A program made the translations under genes and the position numbers. 64,000 nucleotides of DNA. Source: Novosphingobium percolationis (lineage in GTDB: Bacteria > Pseudomonadota > Alphaproteobacteria > Sphingomonadales > Sphingomonadaceae). Under the pieces are notes generated by a model. That model ran no database searches and had not been told where the DNA came from. It saw only the letters and a program-made list of their open reading frames with translations. The stretch lies in assembly GCF_020179425.1 (NCBI RefSeq), contig NZ_JAILYM010000006.1:1-64000 (forward strand), written 5' to 3'. Below are positions 27,045-39,767 of the stretch, in pieces. The stretch's first letter is position 1, and the number at the start of each line of letters is the position of its first letter.

Positions 27045-27560
27045 ATGTCCAAGACTGTTGGAGAGTTCCGGAACGTCAATGGCCAGCTGCTGGGGTTCAT
27101 CGCCAGCGGCGAAATCGACCTGCAGCGGGCACGGCTCAAGCCGATCGCCAGCAACAACCCGCGGGCGCCGAAGTTCGAGGTCGAAGCGATCAACCGCAAC
27201 GGGCGCTGGGTGCCCTATGGCGCATTGTTCGAAGCGACCGCGATCCATACCACCGGGGAGATTTTCTACTCCGGCGAGCTGGACGACCAGTCCTGGCGCT
27301 TCCCGATGCAGATCGCCTTGTTCGGGACCGCCGAGGAGGGGTTCCGGGCCTCGTGGCGCCGCGACGACATGGCCCGGCCGGCCGGAGGCAGGGCAGCGCG
27401 CTCGCGCAATGGCGATGACGACGAGGGCGAGGATCGCGGCTTCGGCGGCGGCGAGCGCGGCCAGTTCGGGGGCGGATTCGGTGGATCGACCGCCCCGATG
27501 GAGGGGGCCGGCGCGCGCGGCGGTTTCAGCAACGATCTCGATGAAGAGGTCCCGTTCTGA
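27045..27560 (+). CDS. DUF736 protein with SSB-like acidic C-terminal tip
   Basis: A 171-residue protein. Residues 1-110 form a DUF736 domain (TVGEFRNVNGQLLGFIASGE). The tail is a glycine-rich linker ending in NDLDEEVPF. This linker-plus-tip design copies single-stranded DNA-binding protein (SSB), whose acidic tip ends in Pro-Phe and recruits repair and replication proteins. GAGGAG at 27031-27036 supports the ATG at 27045. DUF736 genes are ICE and plasmid markers without an assigned function. The tip suggests that this one binds host SSB-interacting proteins, which is inference. Confidence 0.85.
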   Translation: MSKTVGEFRNVNGQLLGFIASGEIDLQRARLKPIASNNPRAPKFEVEAINRNGRWVPYGALFEATAIHTTGEIFYSGELDDQSWRFPMQIALFGTAEEGFRASWRRDDMARPAGGRAARSRNGDDDEGEDRGFGGGERGQFGGGFGGSTAPMEGAGARGGFSNDLDEEVPF

Positions 27561-27643: not shown

Positions 27644-28693
27644 ATGACCAGGCACGAACCCGTGCGCAGCGTCGATCGCTTCGCCGACCTCAAACAGCTC
27701 TATGCCGAGATGACCGCCACCCCCGAATTCCAGGCCGCCTTTGGTGACCCCATGCCGCTCTCGATCGTCGAACCCGGCGAGGAGCCGGGTGAACATGGCA
27801 TGCCCGAAGAACTGGCGGCGCAGGCCGACAGCGCGGGCGTGATCGCCACCATCTTCGACCTGTTCACCGGCACGCGGCTGGAGCCGCTGGCCGCCGAAAT
27901 CGCCTGGGGGTTCGTCAACTCCTTTCACTTCGTCGCCGGCAAGCTGGAGCGGCGCGAGGACAGTCTCGCCGTGGAAATCGCTGAGCTGGCCCGGCACCCC
28001 GATATGAGCGAGGTCTATAATCGCGAGCTTGAGGAGAAGCAGCTCCTTTGCCAGTCGACCGCCGAACAGCGCCTCGCGATCGAGACGATGCGGGATTATG
28101 CCGCCGAAATGTACCGGGCGATGTCGGGATGGCCCTGGTCGCCTGCGCGCGGGAGCCGCGCTTCGCGCATCTCGACCGCCAGCCAGATTGCCGCGATCGA
28201 CTTCCTGCGCGCCCGCCAGCTCGATGTCCGCGACCGGCATAATCCGCAGGGACCGATCGTGGTCTTCTCGGGGCCGGCGATCTGGCACGATGTCGACCTG
28301 CTCTGGGAACGGCTCGATCTGGTGAAAGAGCATATTCCGCATATGGTGCTCATGACGACCGCGCAGCGCAGCGGCGCCGACCTGATCGCGGAGAAATGGG
28401 CCGCCAGCCGCAAGGTGCAGACAGTCCGGTTCAATCTGCTCGGGTCGGGCATGAAGGCCGCTTTCGCGCGCAATCGAAAGCTGCGCGATCTGAGGCCCGT
28501 GATGGCGGTCCTGTGCGAGGGATCGGGCGTCCAGGCCAATCTCTATGAGGAGCTGGATGGCGCGGGCGTGCCGATCCATGCCTTCCGCAAATCGGATCAG
28601 GCCGCCGACAAGGGGATGCCGGTGCGCAGGATAGCGGACGGACGCCGGACGGCGCGGGCGGAGCGACGTCGTGCTGCCGCGGCAGCGGCCTGA
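27644..28693 (+). CDS. DUF2493 (SLOG-fold) protein, copy 1
   Basis: A 349-residue protein. The C-terminal third is a DUF2493 domain of the SLOG/YspA-like fold, with VVFSGPAIWHDVDLLWERLD, MTTAQRSGADLIAEKWA and LCEGSGVQANLYEELDG. SLOG domains bind nucleotides or related ligands. The N-terminal 180 residues are helical. A paralogue lies 1.2 kb downstream (29886-30872). The start is preceded by AAGGAC and by the 11-base motif TCTTTCAAGAA, which also precedes the paralogue. Such genes are frequent in sphingomonad ICEs, with unknown function. Confidence 0.82.
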   Translation: MTRHEPVRSVDRFADLKQLYAEMTATPEFQAAFGDPMPLSIVEPGEEPGEHGMPEELAAQADSAGVIATIFDLFTGTRLEPLAAEIAWGFVNSFHFVAGKLERREDSLAVEIAELARHPDMSEVYNRELEEKQLLCQSTAEQRLAIETMRDYAAEMYRAMSGWPWSPARGSRASRISTASQIAAIDFLRARQLDVRDRHNPQGPIVVFSGPAIWHDVDLLWERLDLVKEHIPHMVLMTTAQRSGADLIAEKWAASRKVQTVRFNLLGSGMKAAFARNRKLRDLRPVMAVLCEGSGVQANLYEELDGAGVPIHAFRKSDQAADKGMPVRRIADGRRTARAERRRAAAAAA

Positions 28694-29545: not shown

Positions 29546-29586
29546 GATGATGGCGTCTTCCGCCCGCTAACTTTGGCTGTGCGTGG

Positions 29587-29621
29587 AGCTATCCCATGGG
29601 CATCGAGCCCATGGGATAGCT
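29587..29621. repeat. Perfect 15-bp inverted repeat
   Basis: AGCTATCCCATGGGC (29587-29601) and GCCCATGGGATAGCT (29607-29621) are perfect reverse complements around a five-base loop. The hairpin follows the small-gene operon by 41 bases, so it may act as a terminator or mRNA 3' end, although only TTT follows it. A protein-binding site is also possible. Confidence 0.6.
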
Positions 29622-29720
29622 TTGGCACCCAGCGGCACCGTTCCGTGTAAAATATCTCTCTCAACAAGTCTTATGATGGCACGGGGACAGCACCGGCCTC
29701 AAGGACGGCGGGGCCCCACC

Positions 29721-29782
29721 ATTTTCTTTGGCGAACAGAGGGCTGTGCTCTCATGCAAGCGTCCCGCGGCGCCAAAGAAAAT
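29721..29782. repeat. Perfect 13-bp inverted repeat in the 340-bp leader region
   Basis: ATTTTCTTTGGCG (29721-29733) and CGCCAAAGAAAAT (29770-29782) are perfect reverse complements with 36 bases between. They lie in the 29546-29885 interval, which has no gene but holds three inverted repeats ahead of the second DUF2493 gene. Such a layout suits an RNA leader or a dimeric protein-binding site. Which one cannot be told from sequence. Confidence 0.55.
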
Positions 29783-29855
29783 CGTGACCCCCACCGCCGC
29801 TAAAGCGGTCGCTTCGCGATCCTTGACCCCGGCGCTCGGAGCCCGTGCAGGGGAA

Positions 29856-29884
29856 ATGACCTCTTTCAAGAAACAGGAGGTCAT
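29856..29884 (+). promoter_or_regulatory. Hairpin that buries the ribosome binding site of the second DUF2493 gene
   Basis: ATGACCTC (29856-29863) and GAGGTCAT (29877-29884) pair perfectly over eight bases, with a 13-base loop. The right arm contains most of the Shine-Dalgarno sequence AGGAGGT two bases before the ATG region at 29886. Folding would hide the ribosome binding site, so translation may be regulated. The left half also holds the TCTTTCAAGAA motif shared with the first DUF2493 leader. Confidence 0.5.
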
Positions 29885-29885
29885 C

Positions 29886-30872
29886 ATGACGAACTTCAAG
29901 CGCACCATCCGGGACTTCACCGAAATCGCCGATCTCATCGCCGAGGAAACAGCCGCGCCCAGCAACGACTTCACCGCCGCCTTCAGCTCCGACCTCGATG
30001 GCATCCGCGTCGCGCGGGGAGAGGACGAACGCCTCGCCGACATGCCCGATCCGATGCAGGTGCAGCTGGCGACCGAACTCCTGATCGGCACCGTCTTCGA
30101 TGTCCTGCGCGACACGAGGCTGGAACGCGTCGCCGAGCGCATCGCCTGGGGCATCGTCAACAGCCTGCACAGCACGGCACGGGGCCTGGCAGGACAGGCC
30201 GACGACGCCGCGCGCGCGGTGAAGGATCTCATCCGGTGCGCGGACGGGAGCGAGGTGATGATGAACGAGCTGGAGGAGGCGCAGCTGAAATGCCGGGAAC
30301 TCGATGAAGCGAACGACGCCATCGCCTGCATGCGGGACCACGCCGCCGCATCGTTCCGGGCCGAGACCGGCAAGCCATGGTCCAGTGCGCGCGGATCGCT
30401 GGTGTCGAGCAAACGCACCGCCTCGGTCATAGACGCAACCGACTTCCTCGCAGCCCGCCGCAATCGCAGGATCGACCAGCACCATCCGCAAGGGCCGATC
30501 GTGGCCTTCTCGGGCGGCGCGGCATGGGACGATTATCGACCGATCCACGCCGCGCTGGACAGGGTGAAGGCCTTCATACCGAACATGGTCCTGCTCACCA
30601 CGGCGCAGGATACCGGAGCGGACGCCATCGCTGAAAGCTGGGCCGCATCGAACGACGTCAAGCTGGTCAGGCTCGGCCTTCCAAAGGGGTTGGGCAAGCG
30701 CGCGGGGTTCGTCCGCAACGACCGCATCGCCGCGCTGCGTCCGGCCGACGCGATCGTCTGCGAAGGGTCGGGCATCCAGGCGCATCTCGCCCGCGTGCTG
30801 GGGGAGGCGGGGGTTCGTCCGCGCCTCATCAGCCGCAACGGCGGAGCGCCAGCCTGGGCACGAACGCGGTGA
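29886..30872 (+). CDS. DUF2493 (SLOG-fold) protein, copy 2
   Basis: A 328-residue paralogue of the 27644-28693 protein, alignable from end to end: a helical N-terminal part, then PQGPIVAFSGGAAWDDYRPI, LTTAQDTGADAIAESWAAS and VCEGSGIQAHLARVLGEAG. The ATG at 29886 is chosen over the far upstream start of the open frame because of AGGAGGT just before it. A strong intrinsic terminator follows 12 bases after the stop. Retention of two diverged copies suggests distinct roles. Confidence 0.82.
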   Translation: MTNFKRTIRDFTEIADLIAEETAAPSNDFTAAFSSDLDGIRVARGEDERLADMPDPMQVQLATELLIGTVFDVLRDTRLERVAERIAWGIVNSLHSTARGLAGQADDAARAVKDLIRCADGSEVMMNELEEAQLKCRELDEANDAIACMRDHAAASFRAETGKPWSSARGSLVSSKRTASVIDATDFLAARRNRRIDQHHPQGPIVAFSGGAAWDDYRPIHAALDRVKAFIPNMVLLTTAQDTGADAIAESWAASNDVKLVRLGLPKGLGKRAGFVRNDRIAALRPADAIVCEGSGIQAHLARVLGEAGVRPRLISRNGGAPAWARTR

Positions 30873-31753: not shown

Positions 31754-32056
31754 TTGGCTCGCATTACAATCCGCGTCGATGACGCCCTTTTCAGGCGCCT
31801 CGATGCCCGTGCCCGCGACGCGGGAACGCCCACAGCAACCTACTGCCGCGACATCCTCGATCGCCATGAAGGCACGGACCCGACCGGGTATCACGCCCGC
31901 TTCGATGAACTGCATGCGACCGGTATACAGACGCTCGCAATCCTCGCTGCGTCGGTGGGCAAGCGCACGCCAGATATCCTTGAACAGGGCCTCGCCGATG
32001 CCCGCCGCCTCCTCCGGGAAAGGGGGCTGCTCGATCCCGAGCAGGATCGGCCATGA
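31754..32056 (+). CDS. Ribbon-helix-helix DNA-binding protein of the transfer operon
   Basis: A 100-residue protein whose N-terminus (ARITIRVDDALFRRLDARAR) is a ribbon-helix-helix strand-helix pattern, followed by a C-terminal helical region. The start codon is TTG at 31754, because no ATG or GTG fits and the motif begins there; CCGGAG lies upstream. It overlaps the coupling-protein start by four bases. It is probably a relaxosome accessory protein and autorepressor that binds the upstream palindromes, as MobC/TraY-type proteins do. This role is inferred from fold and position. Confidence 0.7.
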   Translation: MARITIRVDDALFRRLDARARDAGTPTATYCRDILDRHEGTDPTGYHARFDELHATGIQTLAILAASVGKRTPDILEQGLADARRLLRERGLLDPEQDRP

Positions 32057-34098
32057 GCATCTTCCGGCACGATACGCTGGGGAGCTGGACGCGCGGCGGC
32101 CAGGCGATCGTCCACAATGTCCGGATGACCACGCAGGTCTTCTATCAGACCCTGCTGGCGGGGCTGGTCATCTGGATCGGCGGGATCATCTGGTACGGGT
32201 TCGAGAAGTCCACCGAATATGAACGCTATGTCCTGCTGAAGCTGGGGCAAGCGACCTTCATGGGGGACGCGGTTCCGGGCAATGCGACGCCCATATTGTT
32301 CAAGACGCCGGCCGGCCGGGAATATTGGACGACTCCGAAGGGACTTCTCGACTCCGGGGTCGCACACACCACGCTGGAGGCGTTTGAACGCTATCTCATC
32401 CACGGGGCGGCGCTCTCGGGTGTGTTCGCGCTGGCCATGCTGTTCTGGGCCTGGTTCTATTTCACCCGGACGGGAAGGGGTCTCGGCTCCAACCAGTTCT
32501 TGCGCGGCGCCCGGTTCGGAACTGTGCGGGAAGTACGCCGCGCGCTGTGGCGTCATGCACGGGGCAGCTTCGAGATTGGCGGGGTCAATGTCCCGGATAT
32601 CTTCGAGCCGGAGCATATCCTGATCTGCGGTGCTCCGGGCACCGGCAAGACCAACATCATCATCAAGATGCTCGCCGGCATCCGCAAACGCGGCAAGCGG
32701 GCGATCGTCTATGATACAGCCGGCACCTTCGTCGAGAAATTCTACCGCCCCGGAATTGACGTCCTGCTCAACCCGCTGGACGTCCGATCCGACTGCTGGT
32801 CCCCCTGGGTCGATGTCCCCAAGGACTATCATTATGACCAGATCGCGGAGTCCACGATCCCGGACAAGGCGGGCGATCCCTTCTGGGCCAAGTCTGCTCG
32901 CGGCACCCTGGTGGCGGTGCTCCGCAAACTCGCACGCCAGCAACGCACGCTCGTCTCGATCCTTCTCGATACACTGCTGCGCTCCAAGCTGAAGGATCTC
33001 GCCGCCTTCGCGCAGGGGACCGACGCGGCGGCATTCATCTCCATGGAGGGAGAGCGGACTTCGGCCGGCATCCAGGCTGAACTCGCCTCGGTGATGCGGT
33101 CGTTTGCCTATCTGGACGACACCGAGGATGGGCTGTCGATCCGCGACTGGGTGGCGAATGAGCGGGACGACAGTTGGCTCTTCATCACCGTGAAGGCCGA
33201 CCAGCTTCCCTCGCTCCGTCCCCTGATCACGGTATGGCTCGATATCGCGATCAGCGCGATCATGAGCCTCTCGCCCGACCGGGCACGGCGCCTCTATTGC
33301 GTTATTGACGAGCTTCCGTCGCTCCAGAAATTGCCGAGCCTTTCCGACTTCCTGGCCCGCGCCCGGAAATATGGCGGGTGCGGTATCCTCGGCTTCCAAA
33401 GCTACCCGCAGCTCGAGGCGACCTACGGCATCCAGGATGCCGCGGCGATCACCGGCTACTGCTCAACCTGGGTGGCGCTGCGCGCGAATGACACCCCGAC
33501 CGCGAAGCATGTCAGCGAGAATCTCGGCCAGGTCGAGCAGGTCGAAGCGAATGAAGGCATGTCCTACGGCGTCAATGATATGCGGGACGGCGTGAACCTC
33601 TCGCGGATGCAGGTGACCCGGCCGTTGGTGATGCACACCGAGGTCACCAACCTTCCCAATCTTTGCGGCTATCTGCGGTTCGGCCGCAATCTGCCCGTGG
33701 TGCGTTTCGAGGACAGCTATAACCGCATGCCCTCCATCGGAGCCGCGTTTGAGGAGCGCACGACCGGTCCCGTCCGGATGATCTTGGAGCCGCTCGCACC
33801 ACCCGAGCCGCCCGCCGAGCCACCGCCGCCGCCCTCGCGTCCGACGACGCGGCGGCGGCGCTCGTCTCCTGCGGACAGCGGACCCGAACTGCCGCTGGGC
33901 CAGCCCGCTCCTTCACCACCAACCGAAGCGGTGGAACCGATCGACGCGCCGATTGCGGAGGCGGCCGACCCGGGCCGCGCCGAAGATGTCGCACAGCCAT
34001 CGTCCCCACCGCTCACGCTTTACGGGAAGCCGACCGCTTCCCGGCTGCGCCAGCATGGTCGCCATAGTGGCGACCGGAACTCGGCGAGGCCGGCATGA
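32053..34098 (+). CDS. Type IV coupling protein (VirD4/TraD-type)
   Basis: A 681-residue membrane ATPase that links the relaxosome to the mating channel. Two N-terminal membrane segments (LLAGLVIWIGGIIWYGF and GVFALAMLFWAWFYF) come before the Walker A motif CGAPGTGKTN with K199 and the Walker B region LYCVIDELPSL with D419. The tail from about residue 585 is rich in proline and acidic residues and is probably disordered. It overlaps its neighbours by four bases on each side, so the operon is translationally coupled. Confidence 0.9.
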   Translation: MSIFRHDTLGSWTRGGQAIVHNVRMTTQVFYQTLLAGLVIWIGGIIWYGFEKSTEYERYVLLKLGQATFMGDAVPGNATPILFKTPAGREYWTTPKGLLDSGVAHTTLEAFERYLIHGAALSGVFALAMLFWAWFYFTRTGRGLGSNQFLRGARFGTVREVRRALWRHARGSFEIGGVNVPDIFEPEHILICGAPGTGKTNIIIKMLAGIRKRGKRAIVYDTAGTFVEKFYRPGIDVLLNPLDVRSDCWSPWVDVPKDYHYDQIAESTIPDKAGDPFWAKSARGTLVAVLRKLARQQRTLVSILLDTLLRSKLKDLAAFAQGTDAAAFISMEGERTSAGIQAELASVMRSFAYLDDTEDGLSIRDWVANERDDSWLFITVKADQLPSLRPLITVWLDIAISAIMSLSPDRARRLYCVIDELPSLQKLPSLSDFLARARKYGGCGILGFQSYPQLEATYGIQDAAAITGYCSTWVALRANDTPTAKHVSENLGQVEQVEANEGMSYGVNDMRDGVNLSRMQVTRPLVMHTEVTNLPNLCGYLRFGRNLPVVRFEDSYNRMPSIGAAFEERTTGPVRMILEPLAPPEPPAEPPPPPSRPTTRRRRSSPADSGPELPLGQPAPSPPTEAVEPIDAPIAEAADPGRAEDVAQPSSPPLTLYGKPTASRLRQHGRHSGDRNSARPA

Positions 34099-37049
34099 TC
34101 AATCCCATCCGCCTCAAGGGCACGCCCGCCAATATCAGTCGCTATTATACGGTCGGCGACTATTACACCAAGGGCACCGACGAGCATTCGGAGTGGGGCG
34201 GCCAGATCGCCGCCGAACTCGGGCTGGAGGGTAAGGTCGACCCGGCCGTGTTCCAGGATCTGCTTGCCGGGAAGGTGGGCGATCTTCAGCTTGGCCGTCA
34301 CCGCGCCGAGGGGAAGATCCAGCATCACCCTGGCTGGGATTTCGCGGTCAATGCTCCGAAGTCCGTCTCGATCATGGCGCTCGTCATGGGCGACGAGCGT
34401 ATCCTCGCTGCCCATGAGAAGGCCGTCGGCGTAGCGCTCGACTATCTCGAGGAACATGCGTCCTTGCGGCACCGAGTCGATGGCGAAATCGTCCACGAAA
34501 CGACCGGCCGGCTGATCTTCGCGCGCTTCACCGAACATGCATCGCGGGAACTTGATCCGCACCTCCACACGCATGTCGTCGTCATGAACATGACCAACCG
34601 CCAGGACGGCGATTGGATGGTCAGTCTCGAAACCAGGGCGATGTTCGTCGAGCAGATCGTCGCCGGCCAGGTCTATCGCAACGAACTGGCGCACGACCTT
34701 CGCGAGCTTGGCTATCAGATAGACTTCGACCCCCGGAAAGGCCTCTTCGAAATCCGTGGTGTCCCGCCCGAGCTGGCCAAGGTCATGTCGCAGCGGGCCG
34801 AACAGATTAACGCGCATGCCAAGGAGCATGGCCTGACCGGACAGGCCGGCCGACAGAAATCCTTCTATGCGACGCGTGGTCCGAAGGAGAAAATCTCGCT
34901 GGAGCAGTTGCACGACCAGTGGGCGTCCAGGTCGGCGCCCTATCGGAAGATACTCGACGCCACGCGAGAAAATGCAGACCGCAGCGAGCATGACACCGGA
35001 CCCCCAGATGATCGCACCTCGGCCCGCGCAATGCTGTTCGGTATTCGCCAGGCCGAGACTCGGGAGGCCGTCAACAATCTGGGACGCATGTTCCGGCTCG
35101 CGCTTGCCTCTCACGTCGGAGAAGTCCGGCTCTCGGATATTCGCCCCTTGGTCGAGGAGCATGAAAACCGCTTCAAGCTGCTCGCGACAAGGCATCAAAC
35201 CGGAGACGAAATCCACACGCGAGGGCGCACCACCCGGCGCACCGCTCGCCTGGAACTTGCCCTTTCCGAGCATCTCTCGCTTTCGCTGGGCGACGCGACG
35301 CCCATTGCGACGGCCGAACGCATCCGGGCTGTCATGGCCGAAGCTGGCCTCAATCCCGCCCAGGAGGCAGCGCTCCTTCACATCGGGACGACCGGGGACC
35401 GGCTGGTCGGGGTCCATGGCGTTGCTGGTGCGGGCAAGTCGACGCTGGTGAAGTCACTGAACGACGCCGCGCCACAAGGAATGACGCTGATGGCGCTCGC
35501 GCCAACATCGTCGGCAGCGGCCAAACTTGGCGCTGACGCACGGATCGAGTCCCGGACGGTCGCCAGCCTCGTCGCCGGGGGCGGGCGCAACATTGATGAC
35601 AGCTATGTTCTGGTGCTCGACGAAGCCGGCCAGCTCGGCAATCGGCAGGCGCTGCGGGTCCTCGAAATCAGCCGTATGACCGGTGCACGGCTGATCATCC
35701 TCGGTGACAACAAGCAGACGGGTGCCATCGAACAGGGGAAGGCATTCTGGCTGTTGCAGAAGCTGGGCCTGCCGACAGCCGAGCTCACCGAGTCCGTGCG
35801 CCAGGAAACGCGCATGATGAAAGCCGCGGTCACCCAAGCCCGCCTGGGCAACTATGCCGCATCGCTCGAGAACCTCGACAAGGTGGTCAGCGGTGGGAAT
35901 GCCGAGACGCTGGCGAAGGGACTGGTCGGGGAATGGACCAGGCTTAAACCGGAGAATCGCGCAAACACCAACATCCTCGTGCTGGAGAATGCCACCCGGC
36001 TGATCGTCAACAGCAAGATCCGGGAGGCACTCAAAACGGAAGGCGCCGTCGCCGCAGAGGAAGCCCGTCTGTCTGTGCTCACGCCGGCTGGGATGACCGA
36101 CCAGGAGAAGCACTTTGCCCGCTTCTACTCGGGTGGGCAGGTCCTGATCTTCGCCCGCGACAACGCGGGGCTGGGGATTGCCCGCGACGTCGAATATCGG
36201 GTCGTGGGGATCGGCCGTGATGCGAACGGTCGGCAGGTGGTCCGGATGGTCGACGAACACGGTCGGACCATCCGGTGGGACCCTCGTATCGGACGCGCCT
36301 CGCAGGTCAATGTGTTCCGCAGCGAAGAACGCGATTTGGCCACGGGTGACCGCATCCAGTGGCGATTGGTGAACCATGACCTTGGTTTGAAGAACGCCGA
36401 GCGGGGAACGGTTGAGCGCCTGGATGGAGCGGTTGCCACGATCCGCTGGGATCGCGAAGGGCGGGTGCAGGACATTGATCTCTCCCAGCATAAGAGCTGG
36501 GACCATGGCTATGCGGAGACGGTCTATTCCGCGCAGTCCAAGACCTACGACCGCGCCTATGTGCTGGCACCGGTGAACTCCGGCCTCGTGACCGGCCAGA
36601 ACTATTATACCGCGATTACGCGCGCGCGCTACGGCGTGAAGCTTTGGACCGAGGATCGAGAACGGCTCGTCGAGAAGCTCGAACGCCACTCCGGCGAGAA
36701 GACCTCCGCACTCGAAGGTCTCGGCAGGCTCGATCGCGACAGTCACAGGGCCCGCGAGGAGCGCCACGGAGAGCGCTGGGACCGACTGCGGGATCAGCAG
36801 CGCGGTGATCGCGAGGAGCGCAAGGATCGGATGCGCGTGGAGCGAGAGGCTCGCGAGCGCCCGGAACCAGATGGCCTTGCCCACTTGCTCGCGGGTCGGG
36901 CGCAATCTGCGGCGGAGGCCGTGGATAGGTGGCTCTCGAACATCCTGACGCGCAGTGTCGAGGAGAGCCAACACACACGTGCCGCGGCCCCACGGTCAGA
37001 CCCGGCCCCGGTTCAGCAGCATGACCAGGCGGTCCGCCATGATCATTAA
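34095..37049 (+). CDS. MobF-type conjugative relaxase-helicase
   Basis: A 984-residue relaxase of the MobF (TraI/TrwC) class. The N-terminal domain has the tyrosine-rich start (YYTVGDYY), the family pattern WDFAVNAPKSVSIMAL and the three-histidine metal site HLHTH (H156, H158, H160). The C-terminal part is a superfamily 1 helicase with Walker A GVAGAGKST (K448) and VLVLDEAGQL. It nicks oriT and unwinds the transferred strand. The last 130 residues are highly charged. The overlap with the coupling protein and the transglycosylase gene places it in the transfer operon. Confidence 0.93.
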   Translation: MINPIRLKGTPANISRYYTVGDYYTKGTDEHSEWGGQIAAELGLEGKVDPAVFQDLLAGKVGDLQLGRHRAEGKIQHHPGWDFAVNAPKSVSIMALVMGDERILAAHEKAVGVALDYLEEHASLRHRVDGEIVHETTGRLIFARFTEHASRELDPHLHTHVVVMNMTNRQDGDWMVSLETRAMFVEQIVAGQVYRNELAHDLRELGYQIDFDPRKGLFEIRGVPPELAKVMSQRAEQINAHAKEHGLTGQAGRQKSFYATRGPKEKISLEQLHDQWASRSAPYRKILDATRENADRSEHDTGPPDDRTSARAMLFGIRQAETREAVNNLGRMFRLALASHVGEVRLSDIRPLVEEHENRFKLLATRHQTGDEIHTRGRTTRRTARLELALSEHLSLSLGDATPIATAERIRAVMAEAGLNPAQEAALLHIGTTGDRLVGVHGVAGAGKSTLVKSLNDAAPQGMTLMALAPTSSAAAKLGADARIESRTVASLVAGGGRNIDDSYVLVLDEAGQLGNRQALRVLEISRMTGARLIILGDNKQTGAIEQGKAFWLLQKLGLPTAELTESVRQETRMMKAAVTQARLGNYAASLENLDKVVSGGNAETLAKGLVGEWTRLKPENRANTNILVLENATRLIVNSKIREALKTEGAVAAEEARLSVLTPAGMTDQEKHFARFYSGGQVLIFARDNAGLGIARDVEYRVVGIGRDANGRQVVRMVDEHGRTIRWDPRIGRASQVNVFRSEERDLATGDRIQWRLVNHDLGLKNAERGTVERLDGAVATIRWDREGRVQDIDLSQHKSWDHGYAETVYSAQSKTYDRAYVLAPVNSGLVTGQNYYTAITRARYGVKLWTEDRERLVEKLERHSGEKTSALEGLGRLDRDSHRAREERHGERWDRLRDQQRGDREERKDRMRVEREARERPEPDGLAHLLAGRAQSAAEAVDRWLSNILTRSVEESQHTRAAAPRSDPAPVQQHDQAVRHDH

Positions 37050-37632
37050 GGCCGCGTTCCAAACAATGATCGCGCGGCGCAGGATCGCGCCGATCATCCT
37101 TCGGGTGACCCTATCGGCGGTGATCGTCGCCAGCCCTCTGCAATCATTGGAGGCCCGTGCCGCGGAGCAGCGGACGGCCGATGAGCGGATCGTTGCGGCC
37201 TGCATCGCTCGGTCGGCGGCCGGTCGCGTCTGGCTCGAAAAGACCCTCTGGGGACTGCGAGATCAGGAGGGCGGTTGGGTAGGTGCGGAGGTCGCAAACA
37301 GTGACGGCAGCCACGATCTCGGGCCGCTGCAGGTCAACAGCTGGTGGGTGCCCCGGTTGGCCGCCGTCACCGGGCGGTCGGAGCGCCACATCCGCCATTG
37401 GCTGAAACAGGATGCCTGCTTCAACGTCGAGGCTGCACGCTGGATATTCCTCTCCGGCTTGGCCGCCACGCGGGACTATTGGAAGGCGATCGGTGTCTAT
37501 CACAGTCCCACGGGATGGCGGCAACAACGCTACACCTCGAGCGTCCTCGTCCATCTACGGCGACGGTTCGGGGCCAGCCTCTTTGCTCGACCCTCAAAGG
37601 GGCCATCACCAGTTTCTGTGACTACGCCATGA
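37039..37632 (+). CDS. Conjugal lytic transglycosylase (TraF/VirB1-like)
   Basis: A 197-residue exported protein. The signal peptide (RVTLSAVIVASPLQSLEA) is followed by a lysozyme-like domain with catalytic candidate E77 (RDQEGGW) and the SLT pattern SHDLGPLQVN. It should open peptidoglycan for the transfer channel. The ATG at 37039 overlaps the relaxase end by 11 bases; an ATG at 37021 is also possible. The stop overlaps the next start by four bases. Confidence 0.75.
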   Translation: MIIKAAFQTMIARRRIAPIILRVTLSAVIVASPLQSLEARAAEQRTADERIVAACIARSAAGRVWLEKTLWGLRDQEGGWVGAEVANSDGSHDLGPLQVNSWWVPRLAAVTGRSERHIRHWLKQDACFNVEAARWIFLSGLAATRDYWKAIGVYHSPTGWRQQRYTSSVLVHLRRRFGASLFARPSKGPSPVSVTTP

Positions 37633-38107: not shown

Positions 38108-39673
38108 ATGACGAGACCACGCGCAAAGATCGTACAGCCGAAGGCAAAGCGTATCATTCAAGAACGCAATAAGGCCGTCATGTACGCAAGAGTATCGACC
38201 AGCGAGCAGGAGAAGGAAGGATTTTCTATCCCGGCACAGCAGAAGTTGATGCGAGAGTATGCGGCTCAGAACGGCATAACGATTGCCTCTGAACATGTTG
38301 ACGTGGAGACCGCGAAGCGTGCCGGTCGTACCGGATTCGAGGAAATGCTTCGCTACATCAGATCCCATCCAAGCGTCAGAACGATTCTGGTCGAGAAGAC
38401 CGACAGGCTCTACCGCAACCTCAAGGACTGGGTGACGGTCGACGGATTGGATATCGAGATCCATTTCGTGAAGGAGAATGTCGTTCTCTCCCGGGATTCG
38501 AGATCATCGGAGAAGTTCATGCATGGCATCAAGGTTTTGATGGCCAAGAACTATATCGACAATCTCTCTGAGGAGACCCGCAAGGGAATGCTCGAAAAGG
38601 CAGAGCAGGGGATTTGGCCGACCTTCGCTCCCCTCGGCTATGTGAATGTGATGGGCCCGCTCGGCAAGAAGGTCATTACAATCGATCCGGATATCGGTCC
38701 GTTGGTGACCCGCGTGTTCGAATGGTTCGAGAGCGGCCAATATTCGCTCAAGGAAGTGACCCAATTGGCCGTCAGGGCTGGCCTCCGGTACCGCAAGAGC
38801 GGAAAACCGGTGGGCGTGAGCACGATCAATACAATGCTGCGCAGCCGGATTTACACGGGCTCGTTCGAATGGCTGGGCAAACTCTACAAGGGCTCGCACA
38901 CGCCGCTGACGACCTTTGCCACCTGGTCCAACGTGCAGGAGATCCTGGATGGCCGGAGCATCTCCAACGTCCACGGCAATCGGCTTCAATTCGCTTACAC
39001 CGGACTGATCACCTGTGGTCACTGCGGTTGCGCGGTCACGGCCGAGATCAAGAAGGGCCGATACATCTACTACCACTGCTCACGGTTCAAGGGGCGCTGC
39101 CCTGAGCGGTATGTACGGGAGGAGGCTCTCGACGAGCAGTTCGCAGCTGTCCTCAGGCGGCTTCGGTTGGATGATGCGTCATTCCGGCTCATTGAGCGAG
39201 CCATCCGTGAGAGTCATGCAGACGAGCGGCGCGACCGCGACGAATCGGTTGAGCGCTTGCGGGCTGAGGCCGATCGCCTTCAGCACCGATTGGACACTCT
39301 TTACCTCGACAAGATCGATGGGCGTGTCACGGTCGAATTCCACGACCGGGTTTCAGCGACCTGGCGTGAAGAGCGGGATCGGACGCTCCGAGATATGGAG
39401 AGCTTGCATGCCGCCGAGGACGACCTGATTGATGATGGTCTGGCGCTGCTGGATTTCGCGAGGACCGCCCACAACCAGTTTGCGGATCAGCCCTTGGCGA
39501 CCAAGCGGCGGGCTCTGAATTTGATATTATCGAACTCGTCATTCGCGGGTGGAGCGCTGACCGTCACTTTCCGCGAACCGTTTGGAATTCTTGAAAAAAT
39601 TGGCGAAACTGGTGGCTCCGGCCCAGCGCCAAAAGGGGGCAAAAAACCCCCATTTTTAGAATTGGCTCCCTGA
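38108..39673 (+). CDS. Large serine recombinase (element integrase)
   Basis: A 521-residue large serine integrase. The resolvase domain starts at VMYARVSTSEQ with catalytic S30. The recombinase domain follows, then a zinc ribbon with C303/C306 and C324/C331, and a charged coiled coil. GGAGGAGC precedes the ATG at 38108. Its last codons (GCT CCC TGA) lie inside the 3' end of tRNA-Asn, so the integrase gene reads into the attachment site. It should catalyse integration, and excision with a directionality factor that is not visible here. Serine integrases using a tRNA gene are less common than tyrosine ones. Confidence 0.92.
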   Translation: MTRPRAKIVQPKAKRIIQERNKAVMYARVSTSEQEKEGFSIPAQQKLMREYAAQNGITIASEHVDVETAKRAGRTGFEEMLRYIRSHPSVRTILVEKTDRLYRNLKDWVTVDGLDIEIHFVKENVVLSRDSRSSEKFMHGIKVLMAKNYIDNLSEETRKGMLEKAEQGIWPTFAPLGYVNVMGPLGKKVITIDPDIGPLVTRVFEWFESGQYSLKEVTQLAVRAGLRYRKSGKPVGVSTINTMLRSRIYTGSFEWLGKLYKGSHTPLTTFATWSNVQEILDGRSISNVHGNRLQFAYTGLITCGHCGCAVTAEIKKGRYIYYHCSRFKGRCPERYVREEALDEQFAAVLRRLRLDDASFRLIERAIRESHADERRDRDESVERLRAEADRLQHRLDTLYLDKIDGRVTVEFHDRVSATWREERDRTLRDMESLHAAEDDLIDDGLALLDFARTAHNQFADQPLATKRRALNLILSNSSFAGGALTVTFREPFGILEKIGETGGSGPAPKGGKKPPFLELAP

Positions 39674-39737
39674 GTAGGATTCGAACCTACGACCAAGTGA
39701 TTAACAGTCACCTACTCTACCGCTGAGCTATCAGGGA
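39663..39737 (-). tRNA. tRNA-Asn (GTT), element attachment site
   Basis: A complete cloverleaf with acceptor TCCCTGA/TCAGGGA, discriminator G, encoded CCA, T-loop GGTTCGAATCC and anticodon loop CTGTTAATC with GTT, hence asparagine. The 3' end faces the integrative element, and the integrase stop codon lies in the acceptor stem (39671-39673). The tRNA is intact, as expected when integration restores the 3' end. Confidence 0.95.
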
Positions 39738-39767
39738 GCAGCCTCGGTTGCCCGGGGCAGGACCGCG

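Follow-up and report, generated by a model that had tools for sequence, protein, structure and literature searches.

DUF736 has had no assigned role so far, and the member encoded in the window (the whole 64 kb stretch of Novosphingobium percolationis DNA analysed here) raises the question of what such a protein might contact in the cell when it ends like the host single-stranded DNA-binding protein (SSB).

The DUF736 protein and its C-terminal tip

The preliminary description of the locus had recognised a DUF736 domain, a Gly-rich linker and the terminal sequence NDLDEEVPF, and all three are present within the bounds first given, the ORF running from an ATG at 27045 to a TGA at 27558–27560 (Table 1). 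A Pfam scan of the 171-residue protein finds DUF736 only, with no SSB domain; the match scores 37.8 bits, above the PF05284 gathering cut-off of 22.1. The Gly/Asp-rich tail that follows was judged, from composition only, to be disordered. It contains a GFGGSTA motif common to long-tailed DUF736 proteins with and without the tip [G(F/L/M)G..STA-type motif in 65 of 84 long tails, tip-bearing or tipless]. DLDEEVPF immediately precedes the stop codon, leaving the C-terminal Phe free with Pro before it and acidic residues upstream, and follows the sequence rules for SSB-Ct docking peptides in the available part of PMC10164576. According to the same source, a hydrophobic pocket of the SSB partners takes the C-terminal Phe, a basic lip its carboxyl and a basic ridge the Asp residues, and a Pro to Ser change at the tip Pro weakens RecG binding. 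The two further DUF736 genes of this genome end in YVGAEA and FPPVGNA, both tipless.

Table 1. Features of the DUF736 gene and of the genes downstream, in window coordinates.
Feature	Position	Strand	Evidence
DUF736 protein with SSB-like tip, 171 aa	27045..27560	+	ORF translation, Pfam scan
DUF736 domain (PF05284), residues 5–106	27057..27362	+	Pfam profile
Gly/Asp-rich tail (linker), residues 113–162	27381..27530	+	sequence composition
GFGGSTA motif in linker, residues 144–150	27474..27494	+	tail comparison
SSB-like acidic tip NDLDEEVPF, C-terminal Phe	27531..27557	+	translation, SSB comparison, codon pattern, pN/pS, tree
DUF2493-type gene (Pfam YAcAr, YspA/cpYpsA-related SLOG family)	27644..28693	+	Pfam scan; match in 22/22 tip-clade loci
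Second YAcAr gene	29583..30872	+	Pfam scan, locus comparison
Weak ribbon-helix-helix protein, below Pfam cut-offs	31754..32056	+	match in 17/22 tip-clade loci
TrwB-type coupling protein	32053..34098	+	Pfam scan, locus comparison
TrwC-type relaxase-helicase	34095..37049	+	Pfam scan, locus comparison
TrbN/IagB-like protein	36955..37632	+	weak profile matches, below cut-offs
Large serine recombinase; 3' end overlaps tRNA-Asn gene 39663–39737	38108..39673	+	profile search, tRNA call

At their C-termini the SSB encoded on the chromosome of this genome reads GGFSDDLDDDIPF and the DUF736 protein GGFSNDLDEEVPF; the alignment of the two ends is RGGFSNDLDEEVPF / SGGFSDDLDDDIPF (DUF736 tip / host SSB). 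Over its last 14 residues the protein is nearly the same as SSB, with a score of 59 (shuffled mean 15.8; none of 1000 shuffles as high), and even stripped of its last eight residues the tail, compared with that of SSB, outscores 998 of 1000 shuffles. Three other SSB-domain proteins were found in this genome, all without such a tip. The protein thus shares with bacterial SSB (PF00436) an order of N-terminal domain, Gly-rich tail, an SSB-type feature in itself, and acidic Pro-Phe tip. It differs from SSB in that its gene belongs to a mobile module and its domain has neither an SSB-domain match nor profile similarity; hhalign comparison with an alignment of nine SSB sequences gives a probability of 0.1%. 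Two AlphaFold2 models, built from alignments of only 3 and 5 sequences, are mostly beta and are too weak (mean pLDDT 56.2 and 59.6) to speak for or against an OB fold. Foldseek searches of the PDB with both low-confidence models gave no match at E 0.001; the best hit in a sequence search of PDB chains had E 0.17 (unrelated proteins), and profile searches gave none up to E 10.

To set the tip against chance, codons for D[DE][DE][ILMV]PF followed by a stop were located in whole genomes. The 4.3 Mb genome has three matches (SSB, the DUF736 gene and a HerA-type ATPase) and none to the pattern read backwards. In a set of 31 genomes, made up of this one and relatives, the pattern occurs 37 times, at least once in 29 of the 31, compared with none for the backwards pattern, none for a reordered-codon control in which Pro is moved before Ile/Val/Leu/Met, and one (in genome G783) for that control read backwards. 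The DUF736 tip is therefore far beyond chance. Twelve matches were read in six genomes picked for having two each: judged by eye, six of them belong to SSBs with the ordinary tail and one to a further SSB-like protein, and the remaining five lie in other proteins. All 15 matches read, the three of this genome included, are ORF ends, and three of the non-SSB proteins among them have defence-type domains.

Distribution and conservation of the tip

As a feature of DUF736 in general the tip was not borne out. Among 248 distinct DUF736 ORFs (fragments included), which are a part of the relatives listed, 17 carry a strict tip, 12 a variant tip and 219 none, the two classes being regular expressions devised for this analysis. 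Many members of the Pfam family are short and tailless; the 66 ORFs with a tail of at least 30 residues divide into 17 strict, 11 variant and 38 without. Adding the 18 new loci read from a further search brings the long tails to 84, of which 37 end acidic-...-F/Y (F in 35, Y in 2). These tip-like ends have an acidic residue at −5 in every case and at −4 in 34, and Pro at −2 in 23; the other 14 end in VAF, IAF, VQF, PLF, PIY or PAF.

Loss of the tip from nearly all close homologues, which the preliminary description had named as fatal to its proposal, is not what was found. The protein of Sphingobium terrigena EO9 (locus L034) is identical over 171 residues, and homologues at 95% and 83% identity terminate in GDLDEEVPF and GDLDEDVPF, so that the three nearest all keep the tip; the fourth nearest (L453, 59% identity), the first outside this group, ends TDEMIPS and its Phe is gone. 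At about 40–50% identity, the relatives among those read mostly end in acidic residues and VPF, IPF, VAF, DPF or similar. One locus (L053) carries an in-frame stop and lacks the tail.

A 106-row tree places the tip carriers in one clade of 43 rows (ultrafast bootstrap 100, SH-aLRT 98; few columns, bootstrap unsettled). For this tree and an earlier quick one, domains shorter than 80 residues were excluded and tailless DUF736 thinned to every sixth; four odd rows (L149, L155, L158 and L397) were removed from the 106-row tree, and L053 is in neither. In the quick tree the tip carriers formed two groups, unresolved with respect to the tipless long-tailed group. An acidic-...-F/Y end is present in 36 of the 43 clade rows and in 2 of the 63 other rows (L151 and L159, both long branches), and the tip is a mark of one DUF736 clade and not of DUF736 in general; conservation, which the preliminary description had proposed to survey, is thus upheld inside the clade and fails across the family. 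The remaining clade rows are L045 and L046 (VPFG), L047 (PAFT), L122 (VPL), L453 (MIPS) and L123 and L124 (none), and because the tip is eroded or absent in these seven it is not indispensable. One gain in the clade followed by several losses or erosions is the simplest reading, by a counting method that is blind to gain versus loss.

Acidic tails of ssDNA-binding proteins are known to fold back on a basic surface of their own domain. The tip could likewise fold onto a basic DUF736 surface as an auto-regulatory element, its likeness to the SSB tip being secondary, and members of the clade that keep the acidic run and lose the exact IPF/VPF end (VAF, VQF, PLF, VPFG) would fit this. We nevertheless regard it as improbable: an electrostatic tail has no need of the terminal Phe/Tyr kept in most of the clade, and the lack of any match to the reordered codons in the 31 genomes also speaks against it.

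The tip codons are constrained like the domain and more than the linker. Over 14 hand-chosen pairs, some of which share sequences, pN/pS is 0.21 for the domain, 0.45 for the linker and 0.21 for the tip (last eight codons), the tip value coming from small totals (39.5 synonymous and 32.5 non-synonymous differences). Some pairs, L043/L054 and L117/L118 for example, encode the same tip peptide with different codons. This constraint bears on a second alternative, in which the DUF736 protein would be a decoy that titrates host SSB partners and so spares incoming ssDNA from degradation or an SOS response, with no action on element DNA. The tip alone would suffice for such a decoy, an ssDNA-binding fold was not recognised (weak models; hhalign against SSB), and such tips also occur on unlike non-SSB proteins (Shedu-like, TIR, HerA); but the DUF736 domain is itself strongly conserved, and a decoy peptide needs no such domain. 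We consider the decoy unlikely.

Gene neighbourhood and SSB genes

An association of DUF736 with conjugative or integrative elements is seen at this locus as well, with TrwB/TrwC-type genes downstream (Table 1), where DUF6117 and DUF5983 genes also lie. Twenty-two tip-clade loci were compared, some with eroded tips and three of them (L034–L036, flanks of at most 5 kb) near-copies from the window lineage. A DUF2493 match adjoins DUF736 in all 22, TrwB is matched in 15 and TrwC in 10. The second YAcAr copy is not general, because in 10 of these loci the two YAcAr queries match a single gene. The same order of DUF736, DUF2493, T4CP and MobF relaxase genes is found on plasmids pDE1 (Sphingobium baderi) and pP6W1 (Novosphingobium sp. 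P6W), where the DUF736 tips are of variant form (EEDHVPAF and NDEIPAF, respectively). Both plasmids carry a gene annotated as mobF, yet in PLSDB pDE1 is listed as conjugative with MOBP and pP6W1 as non-mobilizable. More widely, at least 52 of 149 genomes in the family and 39 of 385 in the class have DUF736; among 90 plasmid records with a relative, 47 are typed conjugative. All ICEMlSymR7A-like elements compared in the part of PMC8627217 at hand bear DUF736 genes. A search for an attachment site met no second copy, in direct orientation elsewhere in the window, of any stretch of 15 or more bases from 39600–39760.

No SSB match was found in any of the 22 tip-clade loci (flanks of about 9.5–10 kb, several shorter), in the window, or within 9 kb of the pDE1 and pP6W1 DUF736 genes. 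In comparison, 21 tipless loci, hand-picked from long-tailed tipless DUF736, have an SSB in 16, DUF2493 in 14, TrwB in 4 and TrwC in 2. The element-borne SSBs near tipless DUF736 (L108, L424, L426–L439) all stop at the end of the OB domain without a docking tip (16 of 16), and on pNL1 a tipless DUF736 and an SSB that also has no tip lie about 8 kb apart. The contrast in SSB presence (0/22 against 16/21; Fisher P = 8e-8) counts as few events, because the loci are related to one another. At two of the tipless loci, L421 and L440, TrwB and TrwC are matched although a tip and an SSB match are both missing, so the TrwB/TrwC module can do without the two of them. A plain replacement of an SSB gene by the tip is accordingly kept as a lead: the contrast looks strong, but the events are few and L421 and L440 lack both.

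The coupling-protein gene near the DUF736 gene brings in a third alternative, in which the tip would be a C-terminal secretion signal by which the conjugation machinery delivers the DUF736 protein to the recipient. There is a precedent in the pED208 T4SS, which brings several plasmid-coded proteins, SSB among them, into recipients (PMC8406263, in the portion available). The tip matches SSB-Ct in order and in its terminal residue, as in the host chromosomal SSB, which argues against a transport signal, and we think this role very improbable.

Candidate role of the tip-bearing protein

Because of its SSB likeness, its rarity against the null, its conservation in the clade, the codon constraint and the synteny with no SSB gene found, the tip is most likely a working docking peptide. 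As judged from sequence, there is a high probability that it is an SSB-type docking motif specific to this clade. The role that we favour, with some confidence, is an accessory one in a DNA-transfer module of TrwC/MOBF type, where DLDEEVPF would imitate the docking peptide of the host SSB and be presented to host proteins. During DNA transfer, or conversion of the single strand back into duplex, the peptide would be offered to SSB-docking proteins of the host (RecG, RecO, PriA, primase and the like), and these partners might be brought to the ssDNA of the element, or SSB might be outcompeted for them. The first of these outcomes would have the DUF736 protein on ssDNA; that its domain binds ssDNA is a tentative proposal. 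Against the favoured role stand the eroded or missing tips within the clade, the 14 tip-like ends with no Pro at −2, the lack of profile similarity to SSB, the TrwB/TrwC loci that have neither tip nor SSB, and the PLSDB types of pDE1 and pP6W1. The preliminary description had likewise suggested recruitment of host SSB partners by the tip; the likeness to SSB, the conservation, the codon constraint and the setting in a transfer module, where the searches met no SSB gene, are in its favour, and as a trait of the whole of DUF736 it does not stand.

The plasmid-borne SSB of F is an element-coded protein for ssDNA in conjugation, the role proposed here for DUF736, but F codes a true SSB homologue (PMC9849209, as far as that source was available), unlike the tip-clade stretches with their lack of SSB matches. 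Another case of a divergent mobile-element protein comes from phage HK620, in which a distant SSB is encoded beside sak4 and its last six residues, NDYPPF, matter for stimulation of its partner Sak4; the available part of that source (PMC5928155) calls it a bona fide SSB, whereas ssDNA binding by DUF736 is only putative.

Homology scans of a viral collection found no relatives of the DUF736 protein. A DNA pattern scan of the same collection gave, among the matches listed, a canonical DUF736 (L219) and a protein with the DUF736 core motifs PDYR... and GAAW...YLS in swapped order (L252); later scans gave L285 and L296. The two swapped-order proteins, L252 and L296, are short and lie on viral contigs. 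L296 (971–1270, + strand) encodes 99 residues with the tip EDNEDVPF, its second motif being a weak match; L252 is without such a tip, and neither matches phage records. In the genes that follow L296, PHROG matches point to a Sak4-like ATPase, an exonuclease and a replication initiator; the Sak4-like match is weak, and the same gene matches a family of unknown function far more strongly. By analogy with HK620, the swapped-order proteins suggest that the DUF736 core may be an ssDNA-binding fold. More speculatively, DUF736 and the swapped-motif phage proteins could share an ssDNA-binding fold unrelated by sequence to bacterial SSB, one clade having replaced the element SSB and bearing the host docking peptide, by which MOBF modules with no SSB gene would recruit host replication and repair enzymes; taken as a whole this is doubtful.

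In the open-access papers searched, two of which mention DUF736, nothing was noticed on DUF736 with an SSB-like tip, and there was no mention of PF05284, of DUF2493 with 'conjugative' or of Shedu/TIR with SSB. The tip offers a handle on what one DUF736 clade contacts in the cell and, if the favoured role is true, mobile elements draw on the SSB interaction code of the host by way of a protein with no recognisable kinship to SSB.

The pattern search hints at wider use of SSB-like tips on other non-SSB proteins, some of them defence-type. The second non-SSB tip bearer of this genome is the HerA-type ATPase (PF01935, PF05872; 501 residues; L161:1501–3006, − strand; genome G000, contig C1:48855), which ends QFDGDIDDEIPF. 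A defence-type protein whose C-terminal domain is Shedu SduA (PF14082; L443:1501–2745, − strand) ends GFGSDDFDDDDIPF. Two TIR-domain proteins carry the tips DLDEDVPF (L444:1501–2238, − strand) and IEDEEIPF (L447:1501–2226, − strand), one of the pair being in the genus of the window and one in another family of the order. A protein that is topoisomerase-I-like by eye ends SDDEIPF (L452:1501–3021, − strand), and a 75-residue ORF ends EDDDEIPF (L448:1501–1728, − strand).
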